This document shows, in pieces, positions 1 to 49,156 of a DNA stretch of 64,000 bases. The position numbers and the translations under genes were made by a program. This DNA is from Buxus sempervirens. Its lineage: Eukaryota > Streptophyta > Magnoliopsida > Buxales > Buxaceae. Positions within the stretch are counted from its first letter, which is position 1. The number at the start of each line of letters is the position of its first letter. The notes below the pieces were generated by a model, which was not told where the DNA came from, did not search any database, and was given only the letters and a program-made list of their open reading frames with translations. The stretch lies in the NCBI GenBank assembly GCA_947561395.2, contig OX387194.1, positions 16,354,048-16,418,047 of the forward strand. Direction: 5' to 3'.

Positions 1-849
1 ACGACGATTGAAGGCGAAAACCCCAGGTCTATGGGATTACCCCAAGACCATACCACTGACCCCAATCACCTTTAAGTACTCAAAATTAAATTACATTATA
101 CATTCTTCATTCATTCCATATACATGCCACTAGAGCTAAAAACTATAAACATTTAAAATAAGAGGTAGAAGATATAAGGTTTTTAAACCACGAAAAGAAA
201 GCATGTATAAGTACCTTCTACAAAACCTTGATGGTGCAATAATATTGAGATTACATAATTATTCGCATGCCAATAACACCATATATCATGATTTGCAACC
301 TTTACATTTATAATTTCATCCTATGTCTTAAAATCATAAATTATTAGATGGTGGCACGATACCACTATGTCTAGGATCGTTAACTTAAACACACGAAGAA
401 ATAATCTAAGCAGATAGAAAATTAGCAAATTGAATATTGAAACTATTAACTAAAAGGCAGATCTATTTGAACATCTGATTAGATCAAATAGATCAATAAA
501 TCAGATCAATTGAAGGGACTTTCCAAATACCAATTAGTTCCCCTAGGTTGCCTTCAATCGCAGTCGGATGATAATCCGAAAGCTATTCCTCGGCAGAGCC
601 CGGTAGGCGGTATTTGTTGAACATAGGTACAGATCTCAAGCCAGGGGGCGTCTGTTGATCTGTCTCGGTACTTCTAGAGTCCCTAAAAGAATTGATCTTG
701 ATAAATTGAACTTATTGATCTAATCTTTTGATTTTTGAAAGAAATTGAAGACAGCAAAACAAATACCAAAAATTACAATGCATATCATATGCCATGGCCT
801 AAATACTTACAGCATGACACATTATAGATACTAGAGAATAAATACTTAC
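1..849. other. Intergenic stretch at left edge, no gene seen
   Basis: No coding signal was recognised. The window begins with a GATTGAAGGC motif near position 7 and carries the reverse complement, GCCTTCAATC, near 550. The two could be the ends of a roughly 550-bp inverted-repeat or LTR-like insertion, but no target duplication was visible. Around 590-640 is a short GC-rich patch unlike the AT-rich surroundings. Confidence 0.4.
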
Positions 850-975
850 CCATTCTAGAGGCAACAAAAATGCAAAAGCACTTGATGATTTGCTTCCTGC
901 TTTCAGAGCCACAGCCCTTCCTTGCCAATCAATGACTGGGGAACCACTTGACCCTCCTTTAGTTCCTAATGCAGC
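850..975 (-). CDS. DEG7: Isolated exon of DEG7-type (Deg/HtrA) serine protease
   Basis: Seen: a 126-bp open segment read on the minus strand, phase 0, 42 codons, bounded by a TACAG acceptor (AG at 977-976) and a GTAAGT donor (GT at 849-848). It encodes GTKGGSSGSPVIDWQGRAVA and then a serine-rich stretch ending in LPLEW. Known: plant DEG7 (protease Do-like 7) carries the nearly identical GTKGGSSGSPVIDWQGRAVALNAG segment around the catalytic serine of its first trypsin-like domain; the GSSGSP serine is the nucleophile position. No neighbouring DEG7 exon was found towards higher coordinates, where upstream exons should lie. It is therefore either an exon between long introns at the window edge or a captured gene piece. 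The reading frame and splice sites are intact. Confidence 0.8.
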
Positions 976-2101
976 CTGTAAAAACAGAAGAGAAAAATGT
1001 AGAAACAAAAAAAGAAAACCTAAATAGCAACCAAGACTTTACCAAACCACAGCACGTACATGAAGGATTAGAAATTCATGTTTTTATCATGAAGAAGGAT
1101 TTCTATGACAAGTGTCTTATAAATCTGGAAATTTTTGGCAACACAATAAGCATCTCTAGGCCATTTACTACCATTCTCAGGTGTCTTATTCTGTTGACAT
1201 ACAAAAGGAAAAGACTCAAATATCCTTACTAGCTTTGACGATTAAATATAAGTACATAATACAAGGAATGCTTGAGAATGGTGTAGCAAGCAGCGTACTC
1301 CAAGTACAAAGAAATAGAGATTGGAAATTTGTATTCTAATCTAACAAAAATTCCTGAATCACGCTCTTTGTGCCATAATTTAGAGCTGTTCCTCAAAGGA
1401 GGTTTAAACAAAAGTAATATACTTTGTTTTGCTATAATTAGAGGCATCTAAAAACTGTATGTTTTTTCTCTATCTTATTTCTTTGTACAACCACACAAAG
1501 CTCCTTTCTGAACAAGTCCATTTATCTTGATGCATGAAGTACACAGGAAAGAACATGTGCATGCACAGGAAGTATAATAAATTACCAACACAACATCGGT
1601 GAAGAATGATAAAAAAAATTGCTTAAACACCAAAGGACATCTCCCTAGAAGCTATCATTATGTGATAACGCTGATATGAAATGCGTTTTGCACATGTTAG
1701 AAATTAAGATAGACATGCAGGGCAGTCCATCCTTATTTACCTCCAAATGCACAAAACATGTATTCTGCAATTTCTATATATGATAGTTTATGAGATGACG
1801 TGAACTACAATACACTTTGCATCATAGCCCTCGTATTTTGTTATTGACTAATTTTGCCCTCCACGTGCTTCGCACGTGGTTGGTCTATGTACCAATATAA
1901 TTTATCTAAATATAATTGAAGTAGTTACTCCAGGCATTGCAATTGCAATGACAATATCCTAATTTATTTTCAAGGAATTTAAAACACACATTAAATTTCA
2001 AAATATAAATCCGAATGGCTATAATGAAGTAGTTGCCAAGGGAGTTTTTAAACTACATGACAAAGAGAAAAACAAACTAAGAATCCAACACGTGACTCTT
2101 A
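976..2101. other. Non-coding stretch
   Basis: AT-rich sequence with only short chance reading frames. The one structured item is the hairpin at 1,861-1,879, listed separately. If the DEG7 exon belongs to a working gene, this would be intron. Confidence 0.4.
1848..1879 (-). mobile_element. Possible degenerate Helitron 3' terminus (hairpin plus TTAG)
   Basis: A perfect 8-bp stem, CCACGTGC / GCACGTGG with a TTC loop, occupies 1,861-1,879. Read on the minus strand it is followed nine bases later by TTAG and then T. Plant Helitrons end with a GC-rich hairpin about 5-12 bases before CTRR and insert 5' to T, so this is one base from consensus. No 5' TC terminus was identified. The same bases contain two CACTTG-like G-box cores (CACGTG), so a chance or regulatory palindrome is the alternative. 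Confidence 0.25.
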
Positions 2102-2363
2102 GTAAATATTCTGTACTGTGTTCACTGGTGCTGTCATCTTGAAATATGATTGAGGAGCTTGAAGCACAGACCCAGGAAGCAGAAGACAAAGTGACAGAAC
2201 TTAGAGCAAAGTTGAAAAGAGTAGAAGGCGAAGCACAATCGAATGGAAACTTCGGATGCACAAACCATAAAGATCTCACATTTGTCTATTGAAAAATTAT
2301 ACTTAAATATGATTGTTTTAGGGGGTTGAGAAATTGTAAATATTCTGTACTGTGTTCACTGGT
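2102..2363. repeat. 28-bp perfect direct repeats bracketing a 206-bp segment
   Basis: The 28 bases at 2,102-2,129 (starting GTAAATATTCTGTACTGTG) recur without mismatch at 2,336-2,363. The enclosed segment contains the coding-like patch at 2,149-2,292. Direct repeats of this length could reflect a local duplication with loss, or repair after an insertion. Confidence 0.8.
2149..2292 (+). pseudogene. Coiled-coil-like protein fragment between direct repeats
   Basis: Forty-seven open codons end in TGA. The first thirty are strongly acidic and heptad-like (EELEAQTQEAEDKVTELRAK), resembling coiled-coil stretches of unnamed plant proteins; the remainder reads like ordinary intergenic DNA. The upstream boundary lacks a convincing pyrimidine tract and there is no start codon at the left. 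I infer an exon relic on the plus strand, opposite to the DEG7 exon, but cannot name the parent gene. Confidence 0.35.
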
Positions 2364-5300
2364 ACTTCTTTGTTACTCATATTCTTTTAAAAAATAAAAT
2401 AAAATAAAAAACTTGCCCATTTTAGCAACAGAATAGTTTGATGGGTTCTTTTCTAAAAGACACTCATCACTTCTAAATAAATTTTCATAGCAGAACTGTT
2501 CATGTCCTCCGTTATCTTCCCTCAAATTCTAGCACGTGTTCTATTTTCAAAATGCCATCACTTCGCTTCCTTATTAGCGACTCAACATCTCACTCAAATG
2601 TATAACACCAGTGGACCCAACGCAGTATATTCTAACAACTGATGCAGAATCCAAGTCAAATACCTTCTGTGAAAGAAAAATGGAAGAAATTGGATGCAAA
2701 ACAAGACATCCTATATCCCTATATGTCACAATGATCCTTCCAATGTTGGGTTTCATGAGAACAACATATCAAAACTGCACCCAAAGCTTGTTGGACAAAC
2801 CATGAAGAGAGAGAGAGATAAAGTGAAGCTTTTGGTGTTGCAAATTAAAGGAAAAAAGCCACACATTTTTTATATCTCAAAGACGTGAATTTCTCTACCT
2901 ATGTATTGGAGTAGAAGTATTACTATATGTGATTAAAGATTTCTAGTATTGGTAATCTTCTTTTCAACTATTTTATATTGTTTGCCTTCAAGAGTTTACA
3001 TATATTGTTATTTACTAATTTTTGATGAATAAATTTATATTTATGTCAAAGGTTTTTTTCTACCAATGAAGTAAATTAAGGAGGGGAAAAAAAAGCATTC
3101 CAATCATCTGCAAAATCTGAATATGAAACATCATTTAACTCGAGAACAATGAATTCCCACCAAAAATCAAGGAAAAGGCACTTCTAAAACTAAAGCTACT
3201 CCATCCTTCACTCCTTAAAAAATAAAGAGAATTTCTTCGTTTCCAAATGACTAAATGAATAGCCAAAGGTACTCTTTTTTTTCCCTAGGGCATCTGATTT
3301 CATTATTTTCTTCATATCTTTTACTAGAGATTGAGAATACTATTGTGCTTTTCTTTCTATTGTCGCTGAATCCTGTTTCAAAGAACTTCCAAAACCCCTG
3401 TTTCTAGAATATGTACATGCAATAATTCTTTATTCACGGATCTTGTATTATCGCACAGCCAAGGCCATGTTATTCATTGATTGTTTTTGGCATTACATAG
3501 GGATTTTTCTCCTGTCAACTACATCAGTATTGAATAAACCGTAATCAAGTTATACTCAAAACACTGGGATTTGCAAAATTTTCATATTTGCTCTCTTCGG
3601 TAATGCATATTCTATACTGGCCATGACTGATCCATCATGCTCGACTTCCAAATTTGTATGTATTCATTCTCTATTCTTTGTCATGAATGATTGTGATTCC
3701 CTCTATAAACAAATTTGCTAGTGTAGTTGGTTTATGGTTGGCCCCAGCTTGGCCTTGCCTGTATTTTGCATAACCATTTGAATGGTCAAGAAATCAGTTT
3801 AAACATCAATCATGTTTGATCACTGAACTGGGTCAACTTCTGGTCCATGGGATTTAATTTGGCAGACAAGTCAAGATGAAATTCAATGCCTTGCTTGCGG
3901 CTTTAGACTTCCTAATGTAGAAACTCCAATTGGTGTTTCCCATGTTTTGTGTGATTCTACATCTGCTTTATAGGAAATAAAATCCCTCACAATACAAATA
4001 TATTAGAAATTTTAAGATCAATGTTCTCAGCCTTGTGTATTTTGTGCCATTAAATTTAGCCTACATTATCATTATTTTTTAAATGAATTCCCCTACTGCC
4101 AATTCAGTTTATGTATTCAGTACTTCTCTCTCTCTCTCTCTCTCCCCCTCCCTCCCCTCTCCTTCTCTTTTCCCTCCCTCTCACACACACACATAAAGAC
4201 ATACACTTATCCCTTATTTTTTTTTTATCCATACACTACTTATTTATTTGTAATTAGTTGATGCAAATTTAGTGTCCATTTCTTTTTCTATCATTGCTCT
4301 TTTGTTTCTTTTTGCTTTTATTTTGAGGAAAGTGCCATGGTGTTTCTTTATTTTGAAGTGGTTTGGTCTTGATTAATTTTTATTGTGAGTTAATTTTTTT
4401 TTGGTTAAATTTTCGGTTTGTGGATCAATTTGGTTTGAGTATCTCTATGTTTTAATCCACTTTATATGAAATTATATTAGATTTTGTATATAACATGATT
4501 GGATTTGATTTGATAAATTTTCAAGTATTCTTTCCTATACTATATCAATTTTAAGCCTCCATTGAGACATTTTCAGGTATTCTACTTGAGCTTTTGTTGA
4601 TTTAAACTCTTTTTTAAATGACAAGTAAATTGCCTTTCTCTTTCATTTCAAGCACAAAGGCAACTCAGCCAACTTTGAAATCTAATATTGATCATATTTT
4701 ATATGATACTTGTTGATCTTCTTGATTTGTTTCCTTGTTGGTTTTCTTTGGATGTCATTTTTGACTTCATAACAATTATTGATTGCTCTTGGCTATGATT
4801 GAGCTTGATCATCTTTGCTATTGAAATGGGACTTAGATATTATGCAATTTAATTTACTCTTTTTAGATAAGAATGAAGCAAAAAATCAGAAAAAACTGTT
4901 GAGTATAGGAGTGTGGGCCACATCTTTCCAACTTCCACATCTCCATTTTAGTGTGTGCCACTTAAGTTGTTGCGTAAAGGAGTGACCTTACTCTTTAAAC
5001 TAGAAATTTAGGGCAAATCATCCATCACCGTCTAAAACAGGGTAGAGTTAAAAGCAGAGGAAGGTGGCTTCCATGTACAGAGCACTAGGTGTATTTTAAA
5101 TTATGGTTCCCTATATAACCTGCAAACCCAACTTTGCTTTTCTTTTGGATAAAGTATGAATGATTTTGATCAACAAAAAGCAGAAAGCTTAATCCCATTT
5201 AATTAGACTCATCAGCAAGAAAGAAGTGTCATGATTGCTGAAATTAACTTGGGAGATCCAATTTCCTACCAATGGTTGAGTTAATGACTCCATGAGGAGC

Positions 5301-6560
5301 ACTTATCTATAACTATGATTGCAGATATGGTGGATTACAGATCCCTACTGGTGGGAACAAATCTCATTAGACTAATATACAAGCACAAGTCATCCTCAGA
5401 GTTTCAAGATCACAAGACAAAATAAAAAACAAAATGAGGATATTTTAGCCCTTTTATAAACACTTCAGTGCATGTTGAAGAAACTAGTTTGAGTAGCACA
5501 TGTATCCTTTTTCTTATTAAATTTTGGCTTGCCCCTTTTTGATTAGTCATGGAAGATCTCAGACTACTCAACAGTGGGTAGAGCCTATCTTTTTGGACAT
5601 GATTCCCTTTGTAATAACTGTAGTCTGGGATACCTTAACTGTCTCCAACCTCATTAGGATATTCTACCAAATGCTTAAAAGAATGCAGATAGAGATCACA
5701 GCTGGGAAAGTGTAGCTGGAAAAGCAACCTGGAATGATTTAATCCATGTACCAAACCAATTCAAGAATTTAGATATGAGATCAAAGAAAAAAATCTCCTA
5801 AGATCATGTGTCAGCCATCCATCTATACCACCCAAAAACACGTGATAAAGATAGCAGCAGGGAAAAAAAATCTCCAAAGATCAATGGAAAATATGGATAG
5901 GCCCTTGTGGTTCATAGGAGGCATGTGACTTGGGATGGTGAAGAAGTGGTTGTAGGGATGAAGTGGGGAAGGAGAGTGTGACGGGGTCCATCAAATTAGA
6001 GCACTCATTTCTACTGCATGCTACTGTTTAAGCTTAGCCATGGTCGACCAAAGCAGGACCATTGCAGCATAGATCTCGAGACAACACAAGTGTAGGCTCC
6101 AAATACCAAATAAACAAATTTGAACTTATCAGGTGCAAAAGTTTAGTATTTGTTTCTCAATTGGGCATCTTTTAGTTGCATGACACAGTTGTTAATAAGC
6201 TAGGTGTCATGTGCTGATAGGTTCCTAAGGGGTGTTGTACATGGTATTAGGTCTGTTAGGACAGTTTTCTAAATCATGTTCACAGCTAAAACACCTCATC
6301 CTTTGTCTGGTGAGGTGGCAGTGGAGTTGTCCTATATGCTTAATAATTAACTGATTAATCAAATCAGGGCTTAATAACAAGTCAATCTGTGGGATCCAGT
6401 GGCTAATGATTACAAGGTTCAATTGGGTCTCAAAGTTCTATCTTCAAATGTTTACAATAACAAGTCAATCTGTGGGATCCAGTGCCCATGTTTATTTCTT
6501 GTCTCTCTGAGTCTTATCTATTTCCCCCCCACCCTCACCACACATACCCCCCCCCCCCCC
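2364..6560. other. Long non-coding AT-rich stretch
   Basis: No recognised gene. It holds a (TC)n tract at about 4,125-4,144 followed by a C/T-rich run to 4,180, and one candidate terminal exon at 3,866-3,973, listed separately. The short open frames near 2,600-2,900, 5,500-5,700 and 6,200-6,400 show no family resemblance that I can recognise. Confidence 0.4.
3866..3973 (+). pseudogene. Candidate terminal exon, product unknown
   Basis: After a plausible acceptor (TTTAATTTGGCAG), 35 codons run open to TAG: TSQDEIQCLACGFRLPNVET continuing to a VSHVLCD segment. The composition (two cysteines as CLAC, mixed hydrophobic and polar residues) looks coding, and codon use is less AT-biased than its surroundings. 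No upstream exon was found and I do not recognise the family. It could be chance. Confidence 0.22.
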
Positions 6561-6752
6561 CCCTGTTTTTTTCTTCTCTCACCCCTTTTTCTCTTCTGCA
6601 AAACGTGCCTTCTTCCTTCTTGTCTTCCCTTCTGCTCTTTCCTAACTTTTTTCCCTCATATGAAACTATAGCCAAAGCTGTCCTCTTTTTTTTTTTTTTA
6701 ACAAACTTTATAATTCTTGTTTTTCTAGTTCTTTGTTGTCATTTAATTTAAT
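6561..6752. repeat. Pyrimidine-rich segment, first copy of a dispersed pair
   Basis: The stretch from the poly-C run onward (CTGTTTTTTTCTTCTCTCAC and following) is repeated almost base for base at 8,167-8,461. About 95 bases at the left of the pair look identical, and the right ends share the ACCAACTTTATAATTCTTG-like tail. The second copy differs by an expanded internal array. Confidence 0.8.
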
Positions 6753-8166
6753 GAAAGCTTCTTTCACATAAATTACTTGAATCACTACTGCATTAGTTAT
6801 ATATTTCGAAATTCAAATGTTAATAGCTTAGTATTTTGCCCTAGATACTCTTTACTCACTTTTCAGTTGTCACTGAAACCAAATTTCAATGAAGCAAATC
6901 ATTTTCCAAAAGATTAACTATTATAAGTCAAGTTAATGGCACAAAAGATGTCATTAATGATTTAAAAATAGTATTACACCGGAGCTTGGGGGCTGAGAAA
7001 GTGACAATGCCTCAAAGATATAGCAATACAAACAACATAAGCAGAGTTTTCTGTAGCAAGTATCGAGCATCTATCATAAATTGGATATTTATGGGTTCAA
7101 TTCAGGATAAATGGTAAGAATTCCTAAACTGATAATACCTTGAACCTTTCAATAAAATAAGTTCAGTTTCTAGGATTAGTTGGACCTCTCCTCTGTTAAC
7201 ACCCTATGATTGGCTTACCAAGTCTGGTCCATCACAAATATTTTAAAAATCAACAAATGCTCTAAATGAAAGTCACATAACATGCCAATGACTATCCATC
7301 CATATGGTTGATTTTTCCACAGTGCTAGCAACCAAAGTCTCTCTCTACTTTTCTGGTTACAGAAACTAAGAAAGATAGAAAGATAGATATTTGGTCAGTG
7401 TTGGTACAAAGTTGTTACATGTCCAAAAACTCCAGCATTTCACTAACACATTAAAATAGCAAATTAAACAACGCCAATTTATATGCTGCACTTGAGAGCA
7501 ATATTAAGAATAATGGCAAAATGAAGGTTCAGGATATACCACTCCTAATCCAAGCAATGTGTAAGTTGTCAACCCAAATCCAATTAGTGCATTTTTTCCA
7601 AAAGCACCCTGTCAAAATACAATTTTGAATGTTAAAAAGGCTGCACAATATTGTGGACCTGAGTATACTCTAAGGATACCAGAAGCAAAATAAGCAAACT
7701 TCCAAGCCTTTCGGACCATTAAAACTTTTCAGAGAAATCGAAAAAGAAAAATACGTAATACAAAAAACAAGGATAAAAGAAAAGAAAGAAGAAAACAAAA
7801 GACGAAACTAATAGAAAGTACAACCAATTAAAAAAAACACACAAGCATGAAGCATGGGAGCACCAATATATGCATTTCCTAACCTCAAACCCAGTTGACC
7901 AAATCGAATCTTCTATAGATTAACCCGAAAAAGGACTCCTAATCAATGATTATGGACATACGATGACCAAAAAGCACTCTCGGAAGAGAAAAATGAATGT
8001 AGCACACAAACAAACAAACAAATCCTGTTTCTCTATCTACATTTCTCTCTTGACCTCCTCTCCTTCTCTTCTTTGCAGTTTCTACTTTCATATGGAATTG
8101 CCAAAGGGCCCAAATCTGTTTTTCATTTTCTCTTCACATTTTATTTGTTTTGGACCAAGTTTCATA
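6753..8166. other. Non-coding stretch with one candidate exon
   Basis: AT-rich sequence with no recognised gene apart from the possible minus-strand exon at 7,540-7,608. An A-rich patch at about 7,740-7,840 is low-complexity. Confidence 0.35.
7540..7608 (-). CDS. Candidate exon encoding a hydrophobic segment, product unknown
   Basis: On the minus strand a TTTTGACAG acceptor is followed by 23 open codons (GAFGKNALIGFGLTTYTLLG then LGV) and a GTATAT donor. The peptide looks like a short transmembrane helix with glycine spacing. A second phase is also open, so the reading is not unique. It shares the orientation of the DEG7, RPB5 and UPRT exons. I do not recognise the parent protein. Confidence 0.3.
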
Positions 8167-8461
8167 CCCTGTTTTTTTCTTCTCTCACCCCTTTTTCTCT
8201 TCTGCAAAACGTGCCTTCTTCCTTCTTGTCTTCCCTTCTGCTCTTTCCTAACTTTTTTCCTAACTGTCCTCTTTTTTTTTAACTGTCCTCTTTTTTTTTT
8301 AACTGTCCTCTTTTTTTTAACTGTCCTCTTTTTTTTTTGACTGTCCTCTTTTTTTTAACTGTCCTCTTTTTTTTAACTGTCCTAACTGTCCTCTTTTTTT
8401 TTTTTTTTACCAACTTTATAATTCTTGTTTTTCTAGTTCTTTGTTGTCATTTAATTTAATT
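8167..8461. repeat. Second copy of the pyrimidine-rich segment, expanded
   Basis: Homologous to 6,561-6,752 at both ends. Between the ends, the single GCTGTCCTC(T)n of the first copy has become an array of AACTGTCCTC(T)n units at about 8,263-8,405, with roughly seven to nine units and T-runs of 8-18 bases. The array looks like slippage or unequal exchange after duplication. Confidence 0.8.
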
Positions 8462-11400
8462 TCTTACATCGTTAAGAGATTTTGTAAAAGACATGTTAAG
8501 GAACCAAAACAAGTTTAAAATTACCACAGTATGCGCTGATAAGCAATTTTCAAGTTTTGAAATTTCAACAGAAGGGATTGATGCTTATATCAGAACATAA
8601 GAACTTACAGACTTAAGCTGTGAGATTAGAACTTACAGAAGGAATTTCAAAGAGAAGGGACCTTCATATGAATGGATCAATCAAAAGAGGAAAAAAATGC
8701 AGACAGTGATTAGAAAATTAATCTAGTAGGTTTTGGACAATAAAGTAATTTCATTCAAATTATCACCGCAACATGTAAGAAGCAGGAACCTTTCCATGTT
8801 TGAGCACTTTGAAATCATAAATATATTTCCAGAAACAATATGCCTACAACATGGATAGGGTTTGAGCCTCTTTTTTTTTATTTCATTTTTTATCTTTTCC
8901 ATTATATATGGAAATATTTGGTGTATATTAAATGAAAAATATATGGTATTAGTGGACCAAAAAAAAATAGAACCATGGAGGGATATTCTAAACTAAAAAA
9001 TTTCAAACATAAGTAGGCTTAAGACCAAAAATATGGGATGTGATTTAGCACTACTAGCTATAGGATGAAGCAGAGTAAACATGAAAAACCAAGATGCTTT
9101 CAACAGTAACCACTTCTGTTCTATTGGATCAATTATCCATAATCAGAGAGACATTGCCTATAAAATTAGAGCTTGATGACTTGATGTCTTAAAGTGGATA
9201 GGTGTATCTAGCATGCCAAGTGAGCTACATATTCTAGTCAAGGAAAAGGCAAGTTTTAGATGGATTTGAAGGAAGACTAAGAAAGATAGAAATGAATATA
9301 TCTGAAAGAGTCCATGAACAGTCCTAATAGGGGAGGGTAAGTCGAGAATATTAACAATGGTGGAACAAGATTTATATTGCCTCCCCAACCAATTGAGATA
9401 AAACTTTTATTAATGCTGATGATAGAGGCTAAAATGATTTCAGAATATTCAAAAAAAATGTTAAGACTATGGGAGGTGAGGGGTGAAAGTTGTAGAATCC
9501 AAAGATTCTACAGGAAGACCAAAAAGGTCTAGACGGCCCCTCAAAAACATGGAAGTGCTCCAAACACAGCCGAAAAGATTTAAAAGGGAGAGAATACGAC
9601 AAAAAATAAATGGTAGAGCCAGCCATAAAGGATTCAGATAAAAGTAATCTAACAGTGGATATGGTCTTCAACAGATTGCAATGGAAAAATAGGATTCATG
9701 TTGCTAACTCAAACTTGTAAGATTACGACATTTAGTTATCTGTTGACTGATTGATTTATAGTTTCATGGAAGCAACTCCCATCCATGAATGAGAATCTAG
9801 TTAATTCAAACCCTTGTAGGATAAAAAATAAAAGGCACAAAGAATGTAAGTAAACTAGTCCTATTGAAGTTTGACTCTACCTTAGTAACTACCTCAACAA
9901 CAAATACAAGCTCAATTTTGATGAAAGATCAACTGGAAACATTCCTAGAATAGGGGTGGTGAGCAGTTGAATGGGTAATATAGTGCTTTCTAATTCAAGC
10001 ATGAAATGACAAAGCCAACAAAGCATAACTGCTAATATTACTGAATTAATTTTAGCAATTCCTGTGTGTTAGAAAGTGTGGATGTGGAGGCAGATTCAGC
10101 CATAATCACCACAGGGGTGAACTCATTCCCAAGTTGCCCTCAGAGTTATTTACGCGACTTCAGCAAATCCAGACCAGTGGATGCCTAGATCAACCAATTT
10201 CCTGGCTGAGTAACTAGCAAAAAGTGAAGCTTATAGTAAGGAGTCACACAAAGGCCAATCCTTACCTTTTGTTGTAGTCCTATAATATCACATTTTTGCT
10301 TCCTCCATCCATATTGATCTACAAGGATGATCTTTCTATTCCTAATAACATGCTCTTAATAAAGTTTTCCGTTGCTGATGATCAAGAGAAAGGGGCAGGC
10401 ATAACGTTTAATGGTTTGTTCCACACAGAAAATAAGCTAAATCTTCCCGTACCTCTAAAGTGGATGAGAGAGAACTATCCCAATGGATTATAAGATGCAA
10501 CCAAATAAGGCTGTCAAATGCTCTGATAGTCATGAAAGAGCTTTGGCATGACAATAGGGGAAGAAACCACCAGGATGGAGTGTTTAATTTTTTTCCAATG
10601 CAGGCATTCTATAGTCTAGTAAATGTTTTAACATCTTAATCTATATTATAACTGTATCTGCTGATAATTCACTTAATCAGCATTCCAACGTGCCTGACAC
10701 TGCATTTTGGAGTCTAAGAATATGATTCAATTCAACTATAGGCTAAGATACAAAAGTTAAGCTGACGTGACGAGAGGCTAAGAAGGATCATGTGTCAATT
10801 ACATGCGCATCATCTCAAGAAACTATTCATCATTTAATTCAATCACAAACCAAATATAAATGAAACTTGAAACTGCCTTGCATGAAAACAAGCCAGGAGT
10901 ACAGAGAATTGAGTAGTCATTTCCAAAGAATTATAACAAGGGAAAAATAATTAGCAGATCTGTTTTTAGTAGGAATAACATCAATAAAGAAGCATTGCAA
11001 GTATATATTCACAGTTGATTAGAAAACAATAATATTGGACGATAAATACCGTTGAGAGTTAATTTTTCGTTGAACATATTGTACATAAAAACTAATTTTT
11101 ACACATTCATTCAATTTTTTGTGTTATTATTTCTTTGTTTTTTCGTTTTTCTTTCCTTTTTCTTACCCTTTTAATCTTTTGCATCTTAAAAAAGAGTCCA
11201 TTAATTTCAGACTTTAATTTGCAACTCCGAAAATATACAGCTACCATGGTTTCTTATTAAGGTTATGATCTTCATCCAAAAACTAAAAATAAAAAAGAAA
11301 CGATGAGATAGAATTAGTTGTTTCTCTTTGCTCATTCCGGACTCCATAATCACAATTTTACCCATCACTTGTTACACTTGTTTTTCAAAAAAAAAAAAAA

Positions 11401-11559
11401 TGTGCATACAGCTGGAACACAGACTAGCACTTCTCAAAATCAAAAGTTTCATCTAAAGCTACAACATATAACCTTGAAATAAGCATTAGTTTTACAGCAG
11501 TAATTATTGAAACAAGGAGAAGATAAAATATCTAGTAGGCATGCTTGATCAACACCAAC
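8462..11559. other. Non-coding stretch
   Basis: No recognised gene. A 65-codon plus frame at 10,296-10,493 is open but resembles no family I know. Poly-A and poly-T runs occur near 8,870, 8,960 and 11,385. Confidence 0.4.
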
Positions 11560-11673
11560 CTGTGTTTCTTTTAGAGTATAACGCTCCAGCAAAGTCTTCT
11601 TTTCTTCATTGGTAAGCACCTGATGCGAAGGAATGAGAACATGTTCTTTAATGTTTACCAGCAGCTCTGCCTC
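11560..11673 (-). CDS. NRPB5: Isolated exon of RNA polymerase subunit RPB5
   Basis: Seen: 114 bases, phase 0, 38 codons, with a GATGCAG acceptor (AG at 11,675-11,674) and a GTTGGT donor (GT at 11,559-11,558). The peptide reads [20 protein letters not shown] and then [18 protein letters not shown]. Known: plant and yeast RPB5, a shared subunit of RNA polymerases, has this segment at the junction of its N-terminal jaw domain and conserved C-terminal assembly domain; the usual next residues are a PRIQ-type motif. Those downstream residues, expected at lower coordinates, and the upstream jaw-domain exons were not found. The open frame and intact splice sites argue for recent capture or for a gene with very long introns. 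Confidence 0.82.
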
Positions 11674-12309
11674 CTGCATCCAAGGTGTCACCAGCAAACA
11701 TAAGTAGCAAAAATCAACAAAAGGACTAGTTCCAGATAGGACTTAAATAGTTTAAAGTTCCACTTTTTCCTTTCTCCTCAATTTCCTTTTGGATAAATAT
11801 ATGAAAGCCACCAACTAAAAGAACATACAGTATGCAATTAAAACAATACAGAAATGCCTTTCCCCTACTAGTTGTAGTCAGCAAAATGAATCATATTCCT
11901 CCGTCCTGATTTGTTACAAAACAATCTTCAATTAAGTTATGAGCATCCAATAACTTTTATGCTAACACTAATTCAGATTCTTTTTGCTTTACTCCCTGCT
12001 CAACTGGATCTTTTTTCTTTTTTCCTTTTTCTTTTTTCTTTTTTTCCGTATAAGTAACGCCAGAAATTAAATTATAAAGAAAGTAGAAGAGTTAGTACAT
12101 GGGACACTGGGTTGGCCTTATACCATTGCAAGACTCACAAATACATAACACATTATATTCCTAGTTTGGTCCACCAAAACCACATTAGCTGGAAAAGAAA
12201 AAAAAAAGAAGGGGAACTCCAAGTCACTTCTTGAATAGAAATTATTATTTTCTCAATAATTAAGAAAAATATGAGTTTGGCAAAAACTTTTTGTAAACAC
12301 CTCAATACT
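11674..12309. other. Non-coding stretch
   Basis: AT-rich with T/C runs near 12,010-12,050 and an A-run near 12,195. No coding or mobile-element signature was recognised. Confidence 0.4.
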
Positions 12310-12620
12310 ATAAACTTAATCTATTTGCCTATCACCCTTATACATGTCCTTGATGAGCTCAATGTATTTGATTGATATTCATGTCCTATCTATAACCCAT
12401 CAAAATATTTCTTTAACTACTATATCTCCTTTTACCTGTCAACTTCTTCACTTGATCAAAAGTAAAAAGATTGCCTTAATGGTAGACTTCCTTGGCATAA
12501 ATCTAAAATTGTGTAAGAAAATTTCAGTTATTCTTCTTAATATTTGCTCCGTTATTCTTTTTCATAACTTTATAGTGTGACTTATAAGCTAACTCCACAA
12601 TATTGGTACATTTCAGATTT
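12310..12620 (-). mobile_element. RTE-clade LINE reverse-transcriptase relic
   Basis: Read on the minus strand, separate frames give FMPRKSTIKAIFLLL (about 12,500-12,455), YIELIKDMYKG (about 12,366-12,334) and a CTN...SH..KV patch (about 12,605-12,565). Plant RTE non-LTR reverse transcriptases have FMPGRSTMEAIYLLR, KYIDVIKDMYDG and CxNYRGIKLMSHTMK in the same order. Multiple stops and shifts separate the pieces, so this is an old, 5'-truncated copy. The 3' end was not identified. Confidence 0.7.
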
Positions 12621-13289
12621 TACTATCACATTCTCCCTCCAGCCAATTGGTGCCTTTTCTTAAAAAAAATATAAGGTCAACCACAATGCACCAATTTCTC
12701 CTAGAATTTCCACTATTCAATTAGAATACCTTCTTGCCTTTCCTATTCTCATCTTGGCAAAGCTACCTTCTTACCTAATGTTCTTTGTTCCTTCAACACT
12801 CAACAAGTTCAAAAATTTTCTGTTTATCTTTTTCTTTTCAAATCCCATTATCCTCTACTAGAAGCAAGAATAACAAGATAATTCTTATATGAATTTTTTG
12901 CTAATAGAAGAGGCAAATCCCCAGAATAATTAGTTTCTCACCAAGAGATGGCTGAGGGAATTATGCATTGCAACCCCTATGTTTTGCCCATTAATATTAT
13001 CGTGGTTTTTTTTGATGTCTGAAAAATGAACTTTAATTGGAAAAAAAAACAAAAAGAAAATAATAAGGAAGAGAAAATGATCCACTACCACTGCCATCCT
13101 TTCTCCACTGCACTTGATGCGACGACACTTGAAATCATCTACAGCCAAATCTAACAGCAACTGTAGTGACTGCTTGATTCACTTAAAATTTTATTTTGTC
13201 TTCTGAAAAACAAATTTTTTAAGAAAGGGTGCCCTCTTTCCCCCTTCATCTTTCTACTTGTCATGGAACTGTTTGTAGGTATCACTAAT
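12621..13289. other. Non-coding stretch
   Basis: AT-rich sequence with no recognised feature. It may include unrecognisable parts of the neighbouring LINE relics. Confidence 0.35.
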
Positions 13290-13710
13290 AAAAGTACTGA
13301 GAGATTTCAAGACCCATGCCAAATGCAACAACCCCATCATTAAAGTTTGTGATTCACAGATGATATCTTTATATTCAGTCATGGTGATCTTATCTCTGTA
13401 ACTGGCATCCTTAAAGCTTTAGGTGTCATGGCCTCAATTTCTGGTTTGAGAACAAATCATTGAAGAAGCTCCATTTACCTTTGTGCAGTTCCTCTGCACA
13501 AAGGAGAAAAGCTTGGAAACTTTCCCTATCACTGAAGGAAAGCTACCTGTTAGATATTTGGGTCTAGCCCTCTTAACTTCTAACCTCACGGCAAAAGGAA
13601 TGTGAACAGCTATTAATCAAAATGAAGCGTAAGCTTCAATCTTGGAAAGAAAAGAGTATCTTCTATGCTGGCTGCCTCCAACTGATAAAGATAAGTTGAG
13701 AGGTTCTGAC
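13290..13710 (+). mobile_element. L1-type LINE reverse-transcriptase relic
   Basis: On the plus strand FTDDIFIFSHGDLISV begins at 13,353, followed by ASISGLRTNH, then SIYLCAVP, ITEGKLPVRYLGLALLTSNL and a shifted frame with an RKLQSWK-like run. This is the classic plant L1 RT palm: the F(A)DD catalytic aspartates, the SGL.IN.SKS motif, and the LPVRYLGLPL segment. Stops and frameshifts mark it as dead. It is truncated at both ends, with no poly-A tail visible next to it. Confidence 0.75.
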
Positions 13711-13833
13711 CTGAAATTTAGTTTTTACTATGCCCCATTTAAAATTTGACTTGAAAAAGTCCTTTAACTAATCATTTCATTGTGTCTAACCAAAGATAAA
13801 GCTAAAACGTACGTGAATGGATTAAGGTTCAAT

Positions 13834-14338
13834 TTAGTGTGGATTAGGGTTGGGTCGGGCTACCCCTAACCCAATTTATAAAATACGAATCCCTAAGCAA
13901 TGGCAAGGGATGAAGGCGGATTAACTAACTGAACTTGCCATCCCTATCCATTACTTATGTATAATTATAGAGATTCATTTGCCAGCACATCAGAATTATG
14001 TCTAAGCAGGCATTGCATTGGCCTTGTTAATTCTGCCACATACAATGATGATGTGGCTTATCTCAACACAAGACTCATCGAAGGTTTTTAGTGTGAATTA
14101 GGATTGGGTCAGGCTGCCCCTAACCAGATTATAAAATACAAATCCCTAAGCATTAGGGAGGGATGAGGGCAGCTTAACTAATTGAACTGGCAATCCCTAT
14201 CCATTAATTATGTATAAACATACAAATTCATTTGCCAGCACATCGGGGTTTTGTCTAAGCAGGTATTGCATTGGCCTCGTTATTTCTGCCACATAGAATG
14301 ATGATGTGGCTGATCTCAACATAAGACCCATTGAAGGT
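13834..14338. repeat. Tandem direct duplication of about 255 bp
   Basis: The sequence from TTTAGTGTGGATTAGGGTTG at about 13,830 to ATCGAAGGTTT at 14,089 is repeated from TTTAGTGTGAATTAGGATTG to ATTGAAGGTTT at 14,338. The copies differ at perhaps one base in ten, so the duplication is not recent. No coding content is evident. Confidence 0.8.
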
Positions 14339-14703
14339 TTCAAAGTAGTCCACCGGACCTTTGATGATAATCTATCCGAGAGCTAGACGTCCATATCCAC
14401 CTACAATGAGCCAACACTGTTCAAAGCCTAGTGGGAGGAGAATGTCATCCAAATATACAAGATCATGTTTCTTTAGAACCAATATACAACACCAATGACA
14501 CAGTAAAACTAGCAACAAGGGTAGAAGCAAAAGTAGATCATCTTGATACAAAGACCCAGTCCAAATTAGGGTTACATTTTCTGCTTTATCTAAACCTACG
14601 GATCATGAAGTACCAGTTTGTGAGAATATTCAACAAACAACAAAAACCAACAATACCAAAAACATACAAGCCACTACGTATACACTAAGAACACACTATC
14701 CAA

Positions 14704-15313
14704 TAGGGGTGCAACTCAGTTCGGTTTGGTTCGGTCCGGGTTGAACTCAATCCAAGACCAAAACAAAAGCATTGAACATTAACCCAAAACTGAAAGAAAC
14801 CAAAACTGATAAACTGAAAACCAAACCGGTTTAAAATGTGAAACCCTAAACCCAAACCGAACCGAATTTAGATTCGGTTGGTTTTAATGTAGAGATGGGC
14901 ATTTAAATGGTTTGGTCGGTTCAGCATTAAAATTGGTTCGCCACCATGGCTGGGCCGATTACAGCCAAATTCCATTATGGCTGGACTGATTAAAGGGGCT
15001 GATTAAAGGCCTGGTTGAGGCCCTTTGAGCCTAAGTCCTTTATAAGGAATCAACTAGGGAAGGTATCCTTCCCCAGACCAATGTCCCACGTATGAAGGAT
15101 GCATACATGGTTACGTGGCTAGGGAAGCATACGTGGTTGGGAAAACTTAGTCCCACATCCGTCTGGGGAAGGATGCCTTCACCAACCGATTCATTATAAA
15201 GGCCCTAAGGCCTCCTACACGAGTGAGATTTCCCATGTGACACCCATGTGACGTCCACATGGATGCCTACTAGCGCAAGCATCCATGGATATTATTATGA
15301 ATAATAAAAATAA

Positions 15314-15401
<88 letters not shown>

Positions 15402-15554
15402 CAGTTCGGTTTCAATTCGATTCGGTTGTATTTTGCTTTCAACCCATTACCGAACCAAATTAATTCAACTTTGCATTTTTAAAACCAAAACCAAACCAAA
15501 TCTTTTAAAAGTCGGTTTGGGTTCAGTTTTACCCAGATCAAGTTGCACCCCCTA
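14704..15554. mobile_element. Non-autonomous hAT element (MITE-like) with 8-bp TSD
   Basis: The 851-bp element has terminal inverted repeats TAGGGGTGCAACT and AGTTGCACCCCCTA and is flanked by exact copies of CTATCCAA (14,696-14,703 and 15,555-15,562). An 8-bp target duplication and a TAGGGG-type end are hAT hallmarks. Subterminal regions are packed with GGTTCGGTTTGG-like motifs on both strands. No transposase is encoded. It inserted into the Gypsy relic, so it is younger than that relic. A long (TA)n tract lies inside. Confidence 0.9.
15319..15399. repeat. (TA)n microsatellite, about 80 bp
   Basis: Uninterrupted TA dinucleotides inside the hAT element. Likely to be length-variable. Confidence 0.95.
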
Positions 15555-16802
15555 CTATCCAATACGTATGCTCCACCACAACCAAGTGCTACTATTGTGG
15601 TCAACTGAGACATCAACCTAATTGGTATCCCAATGATAGATGGCAAATTTGACAACCAGCATAGGCAAGGTTGAACAAGAATATGAAGAACTTGTACATG
15701 ATTTATAAATGATAATTTTTTATGAAGAATAAAAAGTAGAGATTGTGGAGGCAGATGAAGGTCTTCGCAGTGATGACCATCCATTATCAATTTTGATAAG
15801 AAAGCTGACATGTACAACTAAGCAAGAAGCCAATTTACAAAGGCATCATATATTCAAGACTAAGTTTAGAGTCTACGAATGAAAGATCATTTGATTATAG
15901 ATGAAGGTAGGTGTGCGACTTTTGTTTCAAGTAGTATGATTGATAAGTTGTAGCTAAAGACAGAAAAGCATTCCTCTACCTACATAACTGGTTAGATTAA
16001 AGAGGCTGGTGAGACTTAAGGTAACTAAAATAAAGTCAGGTTCCTCTTTCTACTGTGAAATTTACAAGGATGAGGTGTGATACTGTTGACATGGATGCTA
16101 ATAACTTACTACTTGAAAGACCGTGGCAGTAGTATATAGTCTCTATTCATCAAGTAAAGAAAAATTCCATTAGTTTTTACAAGGATGGCATTAAAATAAC
16201 AGCTCTCCCTATGAAAAGGGAACACAATCCAAGCATCATCCCCTAAAAGTTTTCAAGGAAGGCAATCAAGTGATGCAAGAACCAAATTAGAGGACGAGTA
16301 TTCACCAAGGATGGGGGTACTGATGAAGCGCAAGTGGACCCTACTAGTTATCAACTACACTGTTTTAGTAAGAGTTGTTTTTTAAATTTCTTATTTAACT
16401 TCTGTTTGAACTTTGAGACTTTATTTGAGTTGTATTAGGTATTTTAAGTGTTTTAGGAGTAGAATTTGACTCTTTTTTGAGTTATTATATGTATCCTAAT
16501 TTGAAAAGCTTATACATTATTTTACAATTTCAAGAAGTCTATCTGTAGACTGCATTTATTTAGTTTCTTCACATAAGATATGGACTCAGAAGGATTATAG
16601 AATCCATAGAGTGCATTGGTTAAATTGGTTCATAAAAGAATAAACAGTGGAACAAGATTCAAGCAGTTTTCCTCAAATAGCATAGATAAGATGCGGATGG
16701 CTAACTGCAAAAATAGCTTTCTTCAGAACAGGAAGACCAATTATGAAATTACCAGTAGAAAAGTAACCAGCAACCAATTCCGGGAGAGGTAATATGACTT
16801 AC

Positions 16803-16885
16803 AGATATAAGATTCAGAAATATGATATTAGACTCCGGTACACCCTTCCTTGTGAGTAACGAAATAGCTTTAACAGCTGAATTTC
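16803..16885 (-). CDS. Isolated exon of a uridine kinase-like / uracil phosphoribosyltransferase domain
   Basis: Seen: 83 bases between a TTCTACAG acceptor (AG at 16,887-16,886) and a GTAAGT donor (GT at 16,802-16,801), entering in the middle of a codon. It encodes NSAVKAISLLTRKGVPESNI followed by IFLNLIS. Known: plant uridine kinase-like proteins have a C-terminal UPRT-type domain with (L)DPVLATGNSA..AI.LL..KGVPE..IIFLNLISAP, the PRPP-binding region; the nucleotide salvage reaction is uracil plus PRPP to UMP. The exon boundary falls at the G of GNSA. The preceding LDPVLATG exon and the following SAPEG..VC exon were not found within several kb. The frame is intact. Confidence 0.75.
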
Positions 16886-18499
16886 CTGTAGAATTATAGT
16901 AACAATGTTTAGAACAGTTCAACTCAGACAGCAGCAAATAAAAGTTTAAAAGATTTGAATTAGTTTTCACACATCATATGTATGTTAAAAGAAAAACCAG
17001 AAACATTACATTCATTTTAATAATACAAGTTCAAAAAAGGAAATGGGGAAAAGAATGTGAAGGAAGGAAAGAAACGCATTATGCTGACATGTGGTATGCT
17101 TCAATCACATGTAGCAGTTACATGAGAAAGAGACTCTTAAAAAGCAACTAAATTGAAATTATGAACAGGGTTTACCTGACCAGCAGTGCGCGGTCCCGGT
17201 AAACACTGTACCGGAGGGAGAAAATTAAAACAAAAATTGCAGTGTTGGCAACGACTGGTATTGGTCCAGCACAGTCCAGTACCAGCCGGTACAAAGCTAA
17301 TTCGGTCTGATTGAAATAAAATTTCTCAAAAAAATTAGGAAAAAGTGGAAGGTTATTTGTATTCTTTCTAGTCTAGCCATCGAAGGGATGTGGAAGGTTA
17401 TTTGTATTCTCTGGGGGTGGTGGAGGTGTAAGGTACCCAAAAAGAAATTCTAGAAATTTTTTTTACCAGTAATAAGAGAATTATATTGATAAAAAGGGGG
17501 AATGATACAGCTTGTGTACCCCTAGAAAAGGGAAAAAAAATACAAAAGGGAAAGAAAATAAAATCCTAACACCCCACTAATTCAGAGAGCAGATTACATG
17601 AGACTTGAATTTTCTTTCTTACAAATAGATATACATTTAATCCATCTTGAATTTGGTCCATTTAAACCACCCTATCTACAAATAGATATACATCAAGGCA
17701 CCAACTCGTGAATATAAGCCTTCAATTAATCAACAATTAAAACACAAAATAAAGTATCTCATAATTGAAATCATTGTAAACTTATTGTTCCGGAAACTCA
17801 TTTGCCTTATCAGTCACCATTCTCAACCTAGTCAATGCACCCGCCACCCTCATACATAAGTTGAAAAAATTTAGCTTATTTTGCTAATACCATTTTTATG
17901 CCCAAAACACATTAAACATAATCTCAAAGAATCATCATATGCTTTCTCTAAATAAGATAGCCCAAAAAATGTTCTCCTAAAGATACTAAGACTTAATAAC
18001 AGTAATTGATATTAATTACAAATAGGAGTCATATGTTCCCAACAAATACAAAGTGCAATAACCCAAAAACTAAATGAGCAATGCATCCAAGAGTTAAAAA
18101 AATTCCTATCAAAGTGATTCTGAAGCCAAAAATAGCCTTTATCAGATTATACTCACCGATACAGTAAATATAGTATATCTATTAACCTATATAAAAAAGC
18201 CCTTACCACCTGTTCGTCGACCTGCTTTTTCGTCGACCTGCTTGCTTCACCATTCACCACTCGACTTTATAATAAATCACATTTCATCTATTATAACCTT
18301 GCCACCTGCTTGCTTGTCGACCTGCTTGCATGGCGACAAACTTTTTTACTGCTTGATTTCCAACCTGTTTGCTTCCACGAAGAAAGGGAAGAACGAGGCT
18401 AGGGTTCTGCTCGTGTTGATCGGGCTTGAGGCCGATTTATACGAACGCGCAAGGATAAGCCATGGAACGTGCGTTGCTGTGATTGGATTGAAATCTGAA
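16886..18499. other. Non-coding stretch
   Basis: No recognised gene. A patch at 17,175-17,300 carries repeated ACCGG/CCGGT motifs (CCGGTAAACACTGTACCGG). From about 18,210 to 18,330 the motif TCGACCTGCTTGC recurs four or five times. The region may belong to the body of the CACTA element whose end is at 19,110. Confidence 0.35.
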
Positions 18500-18765
18500 G
18501 GAATCAAAGTGGGGAAAATGGCGAAAGGGTCGAAAGGGTCGAAAGGAATCAAAGTGGGGAAAATGGCGAAAGGGTCGAAAGGAATCAAAGTGGGGAAAAT
18601 GGCGAAAGGGTCGAAAGTGGGGTTGCAGGAAAGCGAAGGTTGAGAAAAAGTGGATGGCAAAGTGGATCGCGCGATGGACAAGTGAAAATGGCGAAAGGGT
18701 CGAAAGTGGGGTTGTAGGAAAGCGAAGGTTGAGGAAAAGTGGAAAAGTGGATCGCGCGATGGAGA
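18500..18765. repeat. Minisatellite, GGGGAAAATGGCGAAAGGGTCG units
   Basis: Units beginning GAATCAAAGTGGGGAAAATG start at 18,501, 18,546 and 18,582 (periods 45 and 36). A longer block containing GGCGAAAGGGTCGAAAGTGG and a GATCGCGCGATGG end then occurs twice, at about 18,599-18,680 and 18,687-18,763. Open frames cross the array on both strands (133 and 142 codons), but they only translate the repeat and I do not regard them as genes. Confidence 0.75.
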
Positions 18766-18769
18766 GGTA

Positions 18770-19110
18770 TACATTAAAGCTTTAGCGGCGGTAACTCTTA
18801 CCGCCTCTAAATATCATATTTTAACGGCGGTGAATACATGCGTAATTCTATAGCGGCGGTACAATATAACCGCCGCTATTGAATTACGCATGTATTCGCG
18901 GCGGTAATATACCGCCGTAATTTAGCGTCGTTTATTAGCGGCGGTAATATACCGCCGCTACGCTTATTTTAGAGACGGTAAAATTTACCGCCTCTAATTA
19001 TATTGTTTCAGCGGCACAAAAGCTATTACCGCCGTTAATTCTGCATATTAGCGGCGGTAACTGATACCGCCGCTAAAATCCCGACGCTAATTCTTTGCAG
19101 TTTTGTAGTG
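18770..19110. mobile_element. CACTA (En/Spm) element terminus with subterminal hairpins
   Basis: The right end reads GCAGTTTTGTAGTG, i.e. CACTACAAAACTGC on the minus strand, a typical CACTA terminal repeat. Inside it about eight copies of TTAGCGGCGGTAA-type motifs sit in alternating orientation (near 18,788, 18,852, 18,893, 18,935, 18,972 and 19,049), forming paired hairpins, as expected of CACTA subterminal transposase-binding repeats. The 3-bp AGT next to the end is a candidate target duplication. The left terminus was not found, so the element's full length is unknown. It lies inside a TRIM element, of which only the right part remains. Confidence 0.75.
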
Positions 19111-19135
19111 AGTCATGTCTACACATGAGGGGGAG

Positions 19136-26034: not shown

Positions 26035-26323
26035 TGTTAAGGAATATATTAAATGTATAAATGTCACCTCTACCGTCAACTTAAGCTTTTGGTAGGAAAG
26101 GTATTCTGCATCGTATCAAAGCCTCAGGCTAACACCGAGATCCTGGGTTCAAACCTTCACTCCATCTATTGAGAAAAAAAAATATTCCACATGTAGGTTC
26201 TCCCTAAAAATGTGTTTGAGTCCAGCCCACACGTGAGGGTGAGTGTTAAAGAATATATTAAATATATAAAGTTCACCCTTAATTATTATCAACTTAAGCT
26301 TTTGGTAGGAACAGTGTTCTACA
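26035..26323 (+). mobile_element. TRIM retroelement with 76-80 bp LTRs
   Basis: LTRs are at 26,035-26,110 and 26,244-26,323 (TGTTAA... to ...CA). A PBS-like CGTATCAAAGCC immediately follows the left LTR, and a purine tract (GTGAGGGTGAG) precedes the right. Total length is about 289 bp with no coding capacity. The flanking pentamers CTTAT and CTCAT match at four of five positions. The related flank at 31,365-31,385 (ATGCTTGTTAGCATG) lacks the element. Confidence 0.85.
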
Positions 26324-27037
26324 CTCATTAGCATGATAGACAAAAACTTTCCCATGTATTGTGATAGATTTTTGTATTTTGTTTTTGGTGATTGATTAAT
26401 ACACACCAAGCCCCAATAATAAATCTAGGGGCGTCAACAAAAACCAAGTGCAATAAAAAAGGTAGAAGCAATCAGATGGCCCAAGGCCTAAGGACACATC
26501 ATCTTGAGCTTTCTGAGTCACAAATCTTGAGAAAAAGCATCTTTGATCTGCCTAGTCGTGATCTTTCTATTAAAATATGACTAGTGGGCTCTATACTATG
26601 CAAGTAGAAAAGCAAACTATGGAGGAAGGGGTTGGTGACTCAGAAAGCCTATCCTCATATGAGCTCAACCCCTAAAGTGTCAAGCTTGAGGGAGAAGCCA
26701 TATAAATAGGAAAAATAATAGAAAAAAAGTATTATAGTCTTTATCATTATTACTATTATTACTACTACTAAAAGCACGAAGCTCCTTGTTGTTTGTTGAT
26801 TTTGCTTTCCCTTACTATCCTTCTACTTTTTGATATTGCCTCAGATGCCCATGTCCAAACTGCCTTAATAACCGCCCACTATCAAACATCACAATTTCAC
26901 CCCCTTTCACTTCCGACCGTTATCTTCCTTCAAACTCCACATAGTTATTAGAATACATATCTTTATCTTTACTCTCTTTGACCATAATTATCCCCATTGC
27001 TAAACACCATTTTCCAAACTTTATCTCCTTTCAAATG

Positions 27038-48857: not shown

Positions 48858-49156
48858 TGTTAAGGAATATATTAAATGTATAAATGTCACCCCTACTGTC
48901 AGCTCAAGCTTTTGGTAAGAAAGGTATTCCACATCGTATCAAAACCTCAGGCTAACACCGAGATCTTGGGTTCAAACCTTCACTCCATCTATTGAGAAAA
49001 AAAATATTCCACATGTAGGACCTCCCTAAAAATGGGTCCCCTAAAAATGGGTTTGAGTCCAGCCCACACGTGAGGGAGAGTGTTAAGGAATATATTAAAT
49101 ATATAAAGTTCACCCTTACTATCAGCTTAAGCTTTTGGTAGGAACAATGTTTTACA
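48858..49156 (+). mobile_element. TRIM retroelement, second intact copy
   Basis: LTRs at 48,858-48,933 and 49,081-49,156 (76 bp each), PBS-like CGTATCAAAACC after the left LTR, and a GTGAGGGAGAG purine tract before the right one. It is orthologous by duplication to 26,035-26,323 and carries a small internal duplication (CCTAAAAATGGG twice). The flanks are CTTAT and CTCAT. Confidence 0.85.

Follow-up and report, generated by a model that had tools for sequence, protein, structure and literature searches.

CACTA transposons that carry pieces of host genes are known from several plants, and the published accounts, cited here from portions of their text, describe quite different arrangements. In the Tpn1 family of Ipomoea nil, elements with a 3-bp target duplication contain captured genic regions and chimeric transcripts are reported; the longest copy has 40,619 bp, and the 339 catalogued copies, averaging 7,081 bp, are non-autonomous, with one putative autonomous element besides (PMC5105172). 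The soybean element Tgm-Express1, of 5.7 kb, holds five fragments of unrelated host genes, which splicing treats as exons (PMC1947982), while soybean Tgmt* is a large, putative autonomous element of 20.5 kb with imperfect 13-bp ends, tnp2, Transposase_24 and a 3-bp duplication (PMC2613891). That CACTA elements with transposase domains can hold captured gene pieces has a precedent in Chenopodium, where one or two short gene fragments lie in the 5' part of the element, before the transposase-associated domain (PMC8978399). Pack-CACTA and other Pack-TYPE elements capture coding DNA between terminal inverted repeats (TIRs) and spread it (PMC8903248, PMC13317346), and Pack-TYPE elements are non-autonomous by definition (PMC8903248). 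The locus described here, in Buxus sempervirens, is a 48,567-bp CACTA (En/Spm) DNA transposon at C21:16,324,591-16,373,157, which occupies bases 1..19110 of the window, the 64,000-nucleotide stretch of contig OX387194.1 at C21:16,354,048-16,418,047; the genome searched comprises 676.5 Mb.

Single host exons had been noticed on the minus strand between window positions 850 and 16,885. They are almost certainly cargo of this giant CACTA (En/Spm-type) transposon, which reaches far beyond that interval. The left end of the element is at position -29,456 (base 0 being counted), 29,457 bases ahead of the window's first base; it reads CACTACAAAAAATCTAG and is directly preceded by AGT. The right end, at window base 19,110, reads GCAGTTTTGTAGTG and is directly followed by AGT; the identity among three copies ends there and the flanks beyond are unrelated. 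The inverted ends CACTACAAAA stand at both termini in all three copies, and within the element CACTACAAAA is found only at the ends. The two other copies are co-terminal and sit at other sites, on C19 (48,643 bp) and on C8 (48,483 bp), both colinear with the window copy, with small gaps, up to base 19,110. Target duplications are exact in the window copy (AGT/AGT) and in the C8 copy (CCA/CCA). The joined flanks of the insertion are matched over their full 300 bases, at 91-95% identity, six more times on C21; these places are paralogous empty sites. Together with them, the presence of three near-identical copies in different locations shows past movement of the element. One 48.6-kb unit was inserted as a whole, with patches in common with several host loci, some of them nested.

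The structural and coding features of a CACTA element that were examined are present: CACTA inverted ends, a 3-bp target duplication (with one mismatch in the C19 copy), tnp2, and subterminal direct and inverted repeats at both ends (-29,304 to -28,964 and 18,498-18,897). Host coding DNA lies between the inverted ends, as in Pack-TYPE elements. The element is not filed as Pack-TYPE because it has a long open tnp2 frame. The features are listed below by window position, positions below 1 lying before the window.

1..19110, minus strand: part of the CACTA element within the window, placed by its ends, target duplication, co-terminal C19 and C8 copies and empty sites; transposase frame on the minus strand.
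19097..19110, minus strand: CACTA terminus, reverse complement CACTACAAAACTGC, adjoining the target duplication AGT at 19,111-19,113; presumed 5' end of the transposase unit.
18378..19096, minus strand: subterminal region containing repeats of the GCGGCGGTA type; identity to its counterpart in the listed family members 72-76%.
-10,878 to -8,281, minus strand: tnp2 transposase frame, 866 codons, open, with Transpos_assoc, Transposase_21 and DUF4218.
-11,876 to -11,157, minus strand: DUF4216 (Pfam, 2.4e-26).
850..975, minus strand: captured DEG7-like exon, open frame of 42 codons, borders ACAG/GTAAGT, 82% to C10:33,952,280-33,952,645.
4950..6176, unstranded: C12-like stretch, 94% to C12:38,781,002-38,782,249.
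6561..8260, unstranded: permuted pieces (6,561-6,838; 7,680-8,012; 8,011-8,260) of a C3:15,421,257-15,422,099 type locus, by genome match.
7540..7608, minus strand: unnamed exon candidate with an open frame, inside 6,836-7,683, which is 98% identical to C1:15,871,573-15,872,422; not confirmed as coding.
9557..12155, minus strand: main piece of the captured RPB5 stretch (introns and one exon), 96.7-98.5% to C4:59,173,055-59,175,630.
11560..11673, minus strand: RPB5 exon, 38 codons, borders GCAG/GTTGGT, PF01191 8.4e-10.
12158..13691, unstranded: C12-like stretch, 94% to C12:31,259,674-31,261,222, common to other family members.
13685..16540, unstranded: first part of the C8-derived stretch, 93% to C8:2,518,909-2,521,681.
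16541..17335, minus strand: stretch captured from the UPRT gene on C14 (97.4% identity), set within the C8-derived stretch.
16803..16885, minus strand: UPRT exon, 83/83 identical to the C14 parent exon, with the same borders (CAG before, GTAAGT after).
17336..17422, unstranded: filler of 87 bp between the UPRT and C8 stretches, with a 21-bp direct repeat.
17423..17611, unstranded: continuation of the C8-derived stretch, about 6 bp from its first part in the C8 donor.
17626..18162, minus strand: second piece of the C4 RPB5 gene, 96% to C4:59,176,077-59,176,613.
18176..18378, unstranded: C14-like stretch, 99% to C14:20,140,079-20,140,281.

The 866-codon frame matches tnp2 (PF02992, 7.9e-99), Transpos_assoc (3.5e-18) and DUF4218 (3.5e-48), and it is open in the window, C19 and C8 copies alike (3 of 3). 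Transposase_24 is matched in 2 of the 112 minus-strand frames outside the cargo regions (best 8.9e-8); in a frame at about -15,281 to -14,844 its value is 5.5e-5, below the curated cut-off of the family. On these frames the element is at most putatively autonomous. Divergence among the copies is too low to read selection on the open frames that they share.

The captured host DNA is best read from the RPB5 and UPRT pieces. The RPB5 identity of the exon is secure from its sequence: the best match in PDB is subunit 5A of plant RNA polymerases II/IV (7eu0_E, 1.8e-15), and its protein is identical to those of the C4 gene (two silent changes) and of a C12 paralogue (one silent change). Both RPB5 pieces are 95.7-98.5% identical to the C4 gene, in which 446 bp separate them; their place is taken in the element by C12-, C8- and C14-like DNA of 5.5 kb. 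The last exon of the C4 gene, at C4:59,171,703, lies beyond the captured part. The UPRT exon matches PF14681 at 7.2e-4 (2.3e-5 for its open frame, which begins two bases into the interval, frame 1 containing a stop), and its identity is secure because all 83 bases agree with the C14 parent exon. At the C14 locus, which matches a UPRT chain in PDB at 8.6e-14, UPRTase exons stand on both sides (profile 76-138, 6.8e-15; profile 160-206, 1.9e-15), the captured exon corresponding to 134-160. The pentamer AGTCT at the left border of the UPRT piece is common to both donors. Among the best 40 of 1,277 candidates scored, the stretch at 13,685-16,540 is otherwise found only in the three near-identical copies. 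The nesting of UPRT in the C8-derived piece is as would be expected of gap repair with a template switch. A 253-bp unit inside the captured stretch is tandemly duplicated at window 13833-14340, its two units being 86% alike.

DEG7 is the probable source of the exon at 850-975. The name rests on the 82% match to C10 because the Trypsin_2 profile does no better on this exon than on chance plus-strand frames; a profile search for PDZ_1 (PF12812), as a further mark of DEG7, gave no match. Exons matching a DEG7 sequence follow on the same C10 strand at 33,963,653-33,970,303, and the parentage on C10 is indicated by match positions and identity. The last codon of the exon is Trp in the window copy and Arg in the seven other copies read. 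A fourth gene is represented before the window by a kinase stretch (-27,499 to -24,282), which matches C15:33,876,427-33,879,670 in pieces of 90-96% and has two adjacent spliceable exons; the second matches Pkinase at 1.6e-7, the first matches no Pfam family, and the kinase is presumably NEK. Immediately behind the stretch, its own beginning recurs as a perfect direct repeat of 70 bp (piece L037 of the upstream sequence, 2512-2581 and 5719-5788).

The exons that the first-pass annotation took to be real, open and bordered by GT-AG on the minus strand hold for DEG7, RPB5 and UPRT; the candidate at 7,540-7,608 keeps its open frame, and neither it nor that frame matches a Pfam family. That neighbouring exons are absent is borne out for RPB5, whose last exon (profile 33-73) occurs in 4 of 36 PF01191 matches and at none of those four together with DEG7. 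A single exon per gene is not a rule, because the same element holds the two adjacent kinase exons. Parent genes lie elsewhere in the genome, for RPB5 on C4 and for UPRT on C14, each read in part, and for DEG7 on C10 by match position.

Over the 38 kb on the right, substitutions per site relative to the window copy amount to 0.0018 in the C19 copy (38,453 sites) and 0.0026 in the C8 copy (38,703 sites), and the left 9.5 kb is 99% identical among the copies, with repeated pieces of the first 1.4 kb at 95-98%; because the divergence is this low, the element has spread recently. A 751-base segment around the DEG7 exon is matched at 36 places of the genome, in 25 cases over its full length at 97-100%; for the RPB5 stretch there are 40 matches, 29 of them strong. 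RPB5 lies downstream on the same strand at 24 of the 36 DEG7 places (20 of the 24 also with the left terminus upstream), as counted over all 36 DEG7 matches and the 29 strong RPB5 matches, the 11 short or weak ones being set aside. Both termini are present at 7 of the 36 places, 42.7 to 149.8 kb apart. The UPRT stretch is matched by the three copies (window, C19, C8), by the C14 gene and, weakly, on C6 (76%, E 1.2e-13), five matches in all. DEG7 and RPB5 are widely shared captures; for UPRT and the kinase, the best candidates scored show the capture in no family member beyond the three near-identical copies. As the genome searches scored only the best candidates (40 of 226, 40 of 1,277, 40 of 745, 16 of 2,832 and 40 of 140), absence from the scored matches means little. 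The stretch left of the transposase (piece L010, 1-4,700) matches family members and, in addition, C22:18.64-18.66 Mb, C19:16.54 Mb, C9:38.2 Mb and other places at 80-97% (best 40 of 140). One family member, C11:24,618,927-24,768,750, has its ends 150 kb apart and was presumably enlarged by later insertions. An inverted repeat beside the transposase gene (-6,655 to -1,884; piece L009, 3345-8116) has arms of about 1.7 kb that are 85-87% alike; the arms recur inverted in the family members scored (best 16 of 2,832), and the repeat could form a hairpin RNA, a candidate source of small RNAs.

Eleven further stretches are candidate donors. They match C8:2,518,716-2,521,681, C12:31,259,674-31,261,222 and C14:20,140,079-20,140,281 (best 40 of 1,277), and C12:38,781,002, C1:15,871,573, C3:15,421,257, C8:9,911,093, C1:21,524,446-21,527,663, C3:1,202,729, C21:28,022,764 and a C14/C11/C3 group (best 40 of 226). 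Within 6,561-8,260 there is a perfect 94-bp repeat, and a 75-bp repeat extends to 8,460.

Orientation was read from a Pfam scan of 482 open frames, with a minimum length of 38 codons in the cargo regions and of 42 codons elsewhere (minus strand 122 and 112, plus strand 132 and 116, respectively). The scan covers the element inward of the first 1,856 bases of its left end and the last 710 of its right, with frames cut at piece borders. Minus-strand frames gave Rpb5_C (2.8e-9), Pkinase (1.6e-7), UPRTase (2.3e-5), Trypsin_2 (0.0024) and the transposase domains; the best value among the plus-strand frames (132 and 116) was 0.0024, and none of them had a convincing host domain. Matches to JAB (0.008, among 112 frames), to Promethin on both strands (0.0042 and 0.0026) and to Atrophin-1 (0.0024) were set aside as chance. 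The four named captured genes, DEG7, RPB5, UPRT and the kinase, are all in sense to the transposase, in keeping with the single orientation first described. The kinase lies downstream of the tnp2 frame, and the three others are placed between that frame and the presumed 5' end at window 19,110.

The insertion sits inside a local cluster of the plant DUF247 gene family, with five open frames on both sides of the transposon:

Window 29349-30950, 39510-41108 and 45664-46917, and upstream piece L038 4762-6177 and 8215-9402, minus strand: DUF247 open frames (PF03140).

Sequence flanking the insertion is repeated within about 0.95 Mb (C21:16,302,404-17,254,192, window 26076-26373 and 48894-49201 included), 12 times and in one orientation, with more distant copies at 85-88% on other contigs; the pattern suggests tandem-like amplification of this region of C21. 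Frames of long terminal repeat (LTR) retrotransposons lie on the minus strand at window 20803-23265 (RVT_2 at 21964-23265, which we take to be of Copia type) and 56341-61803 (RVT_3/rve at 56344-58341, presumably of Gypsy type).

Several observations weigh against the cargo reading and need to be set beside the evidence for it. The sequence common to both ends comprises only the 10 bases CACTACAAAA, the target duplication of the C19 copy is GGG/AGG with one mismatch, and the right subterminal region is just 72-76% identical to that of other family members. Trypsin_2 is matched by the DEG7 exon at 0.0067 and by its open frame at 0.0024, as against 0.0026 and 0.0024 for the best plus-strand chance matches. 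Four of four genes in one orientation have a one-sided chance of 1/16, which is weak statistics, and the eleven further stretches may be genes or other repeats, and in some cases either side may be the source. The readings that would do without a CACTA vehicle fare far worse. Resident genes with very long introns, the alternative first named, would draw on the fact that such introns seem to exist, the DEG7 match on C10 being 11 kb from the next matched DEG7 exon; however, the RPB5 and UPRT genes have their further exons on C4 and C14, DEG7 pieces are accompanied by RPB5 pieces at 24 places, and the interval is one insertion with ends, target duplications and empty sites, so that this reading was rejected for the window and its probability is negligible. 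That joint recurrence and the parent copies elsewhere uphold the proposal of capture from unrelated genes by a transposon. Of the two vehicles proposed for it, the Pack-type one is close to the mark, though the element has a transposase frame, and the Helitron is not. Multi-gene capture is known from maize Helitrons of up to 39 kb and nine fragments, according to the part of the source consulted (PMC6431247), but the features of Helitrons (Rep/helicase, no target duplication, no inverted ends) are not those of this element. The inverted CACTA ends, the tnp2 transposase and the target duplication of 3 bp mark the vehicle as a CACTA element and not a Helitron; the 482 open frames scanned contained no helicase or Rep family, Helitron end motifs not having been searched for, and Helitron capture is rejected as hardly credible.

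How the pieces were captured is a separate matter. Excision or breakage of the element may be followed by gap repair that copies a sister element; the repair would lose its place, copy ectopic host DNA at short matches and return, leaving host stretches and filler, and later transposition would multiply the enlarged element. Nesting, filler and microhomology, as read from the sequence, are what repair synthesis with template switching would leave, and gap repair is reasonably likely to be the origin of the captured pieces. Abortive gap repair is the usual name for such a process. The Chenopodium paper, in the portion consulted, uses this term and cites Rubin and Levy for the mechanism (PMC8978399). 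We infer transposon excision as the cause of the breaks. If a CACTA element instead suffered breaks unrelated to transposition, with host pieces as passengers of ordinary double-strand-break repair, it would be expected to show the same pieces nested in older captured DNA, the same filler and the same microhomology, and sequence alone cannot tie the breaks to excision; however, family members differ repeatedly by such pieces, and we regard this as an unlikely though serious alternative. Hybrid formation, the transduplication model described for Arabidopsis Pack-CACTA in a review (PMC13317346), supposes that two neighbouring copies leave as a single unit, together with the DNA that separates them. 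The RPB5, C8 and UPRT pieces are internal and nested, and CACTACAAAA is confined to the ends of the element, which makes this model improbable in general, although it may still apply to the oldest pieces, such as DEG7.

The orientation of the cargo may have consequences. Splicing of cargo into transposase precursors is possible because the four named genes are in sense and three lie between the 5' end and tnp2; long precursor RNAs might take up captured exons, which would yield chimeric RNAs and perhaps small RNAs with matches in the parent genes. By analogy with Tgm-Express1 and Tpn1, the chances of such splicing seem about even. RPB5 is a subunit common to plant RNA polymerases, including the silencing polymerase IV. 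If small RNAs from the RPB5 exon match the host RPB5 gene, silencing of the element would be costly to the host. The full chain, in which a transposase-encoding CACTA lineage, most of 43-67 kb, accretes sense host exons by template-switching gap repair, splices them into transposase transcripts and, through small RNAs of the RPB5 exon (about 25 copies), makes its own silencing costly, is a long shot. The element is young, and two of its donors can be read at about 96-98%, which offers a nested patchwork of host DNA built by a cut-and-paste transposon that keeps an open transposase frame. With captures that are widely shared (DEG7, RPB5) and others that are restricted (UPRT, kinase), the family allows direct tests of the order and mechanism of gene capture. 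For plant annotation the locus is a warning that single good-looking exons may be transposon cargo.

Compared with the systems described so far, the element shares CACTA type, 3-bp target duplication and captured genic regions with Tpn1, from which it differs in that the cargo-laden copies of 48.6 kb themselves hold an open tnp2 frame (PMC5105172). Tgm-Express1 is likewise a CACTA element with pieces of unrelated host genes, smaller by far and with its splicing documented, whereas the Buxus element is known from DNA alone (PMC1947982). Tgmt* is similar in being a large, putative autonomous CACTA element with tnp2 and Transposase_24 (PMC2613891). Capture upstream of a transposase-associated domain also occurs in Chenopodium, where one or two short fragments stand against the many-locus patchwork found here (PMC8978399). 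With Pack-CACTA and Pack-TYPE elements it has in common that coding DNA is captured between TIRs and spread (PMC8903248, PMC13317346), although its copies carry a transposase frame. At 48.6 kb it exceeds the CACTA elements in the literature compared, in the parts consulted (40.6 kb in I. nil, 20.5 kb in soybean, 16-20 kb in Chondrus); a literature search for giant CACTA elements returned no paper, though a larger one may be in print. Exon capture and spread by such elements is a known habit, and the scale here is unusually large: size and number of donors set the element apart, while its kind is already known.

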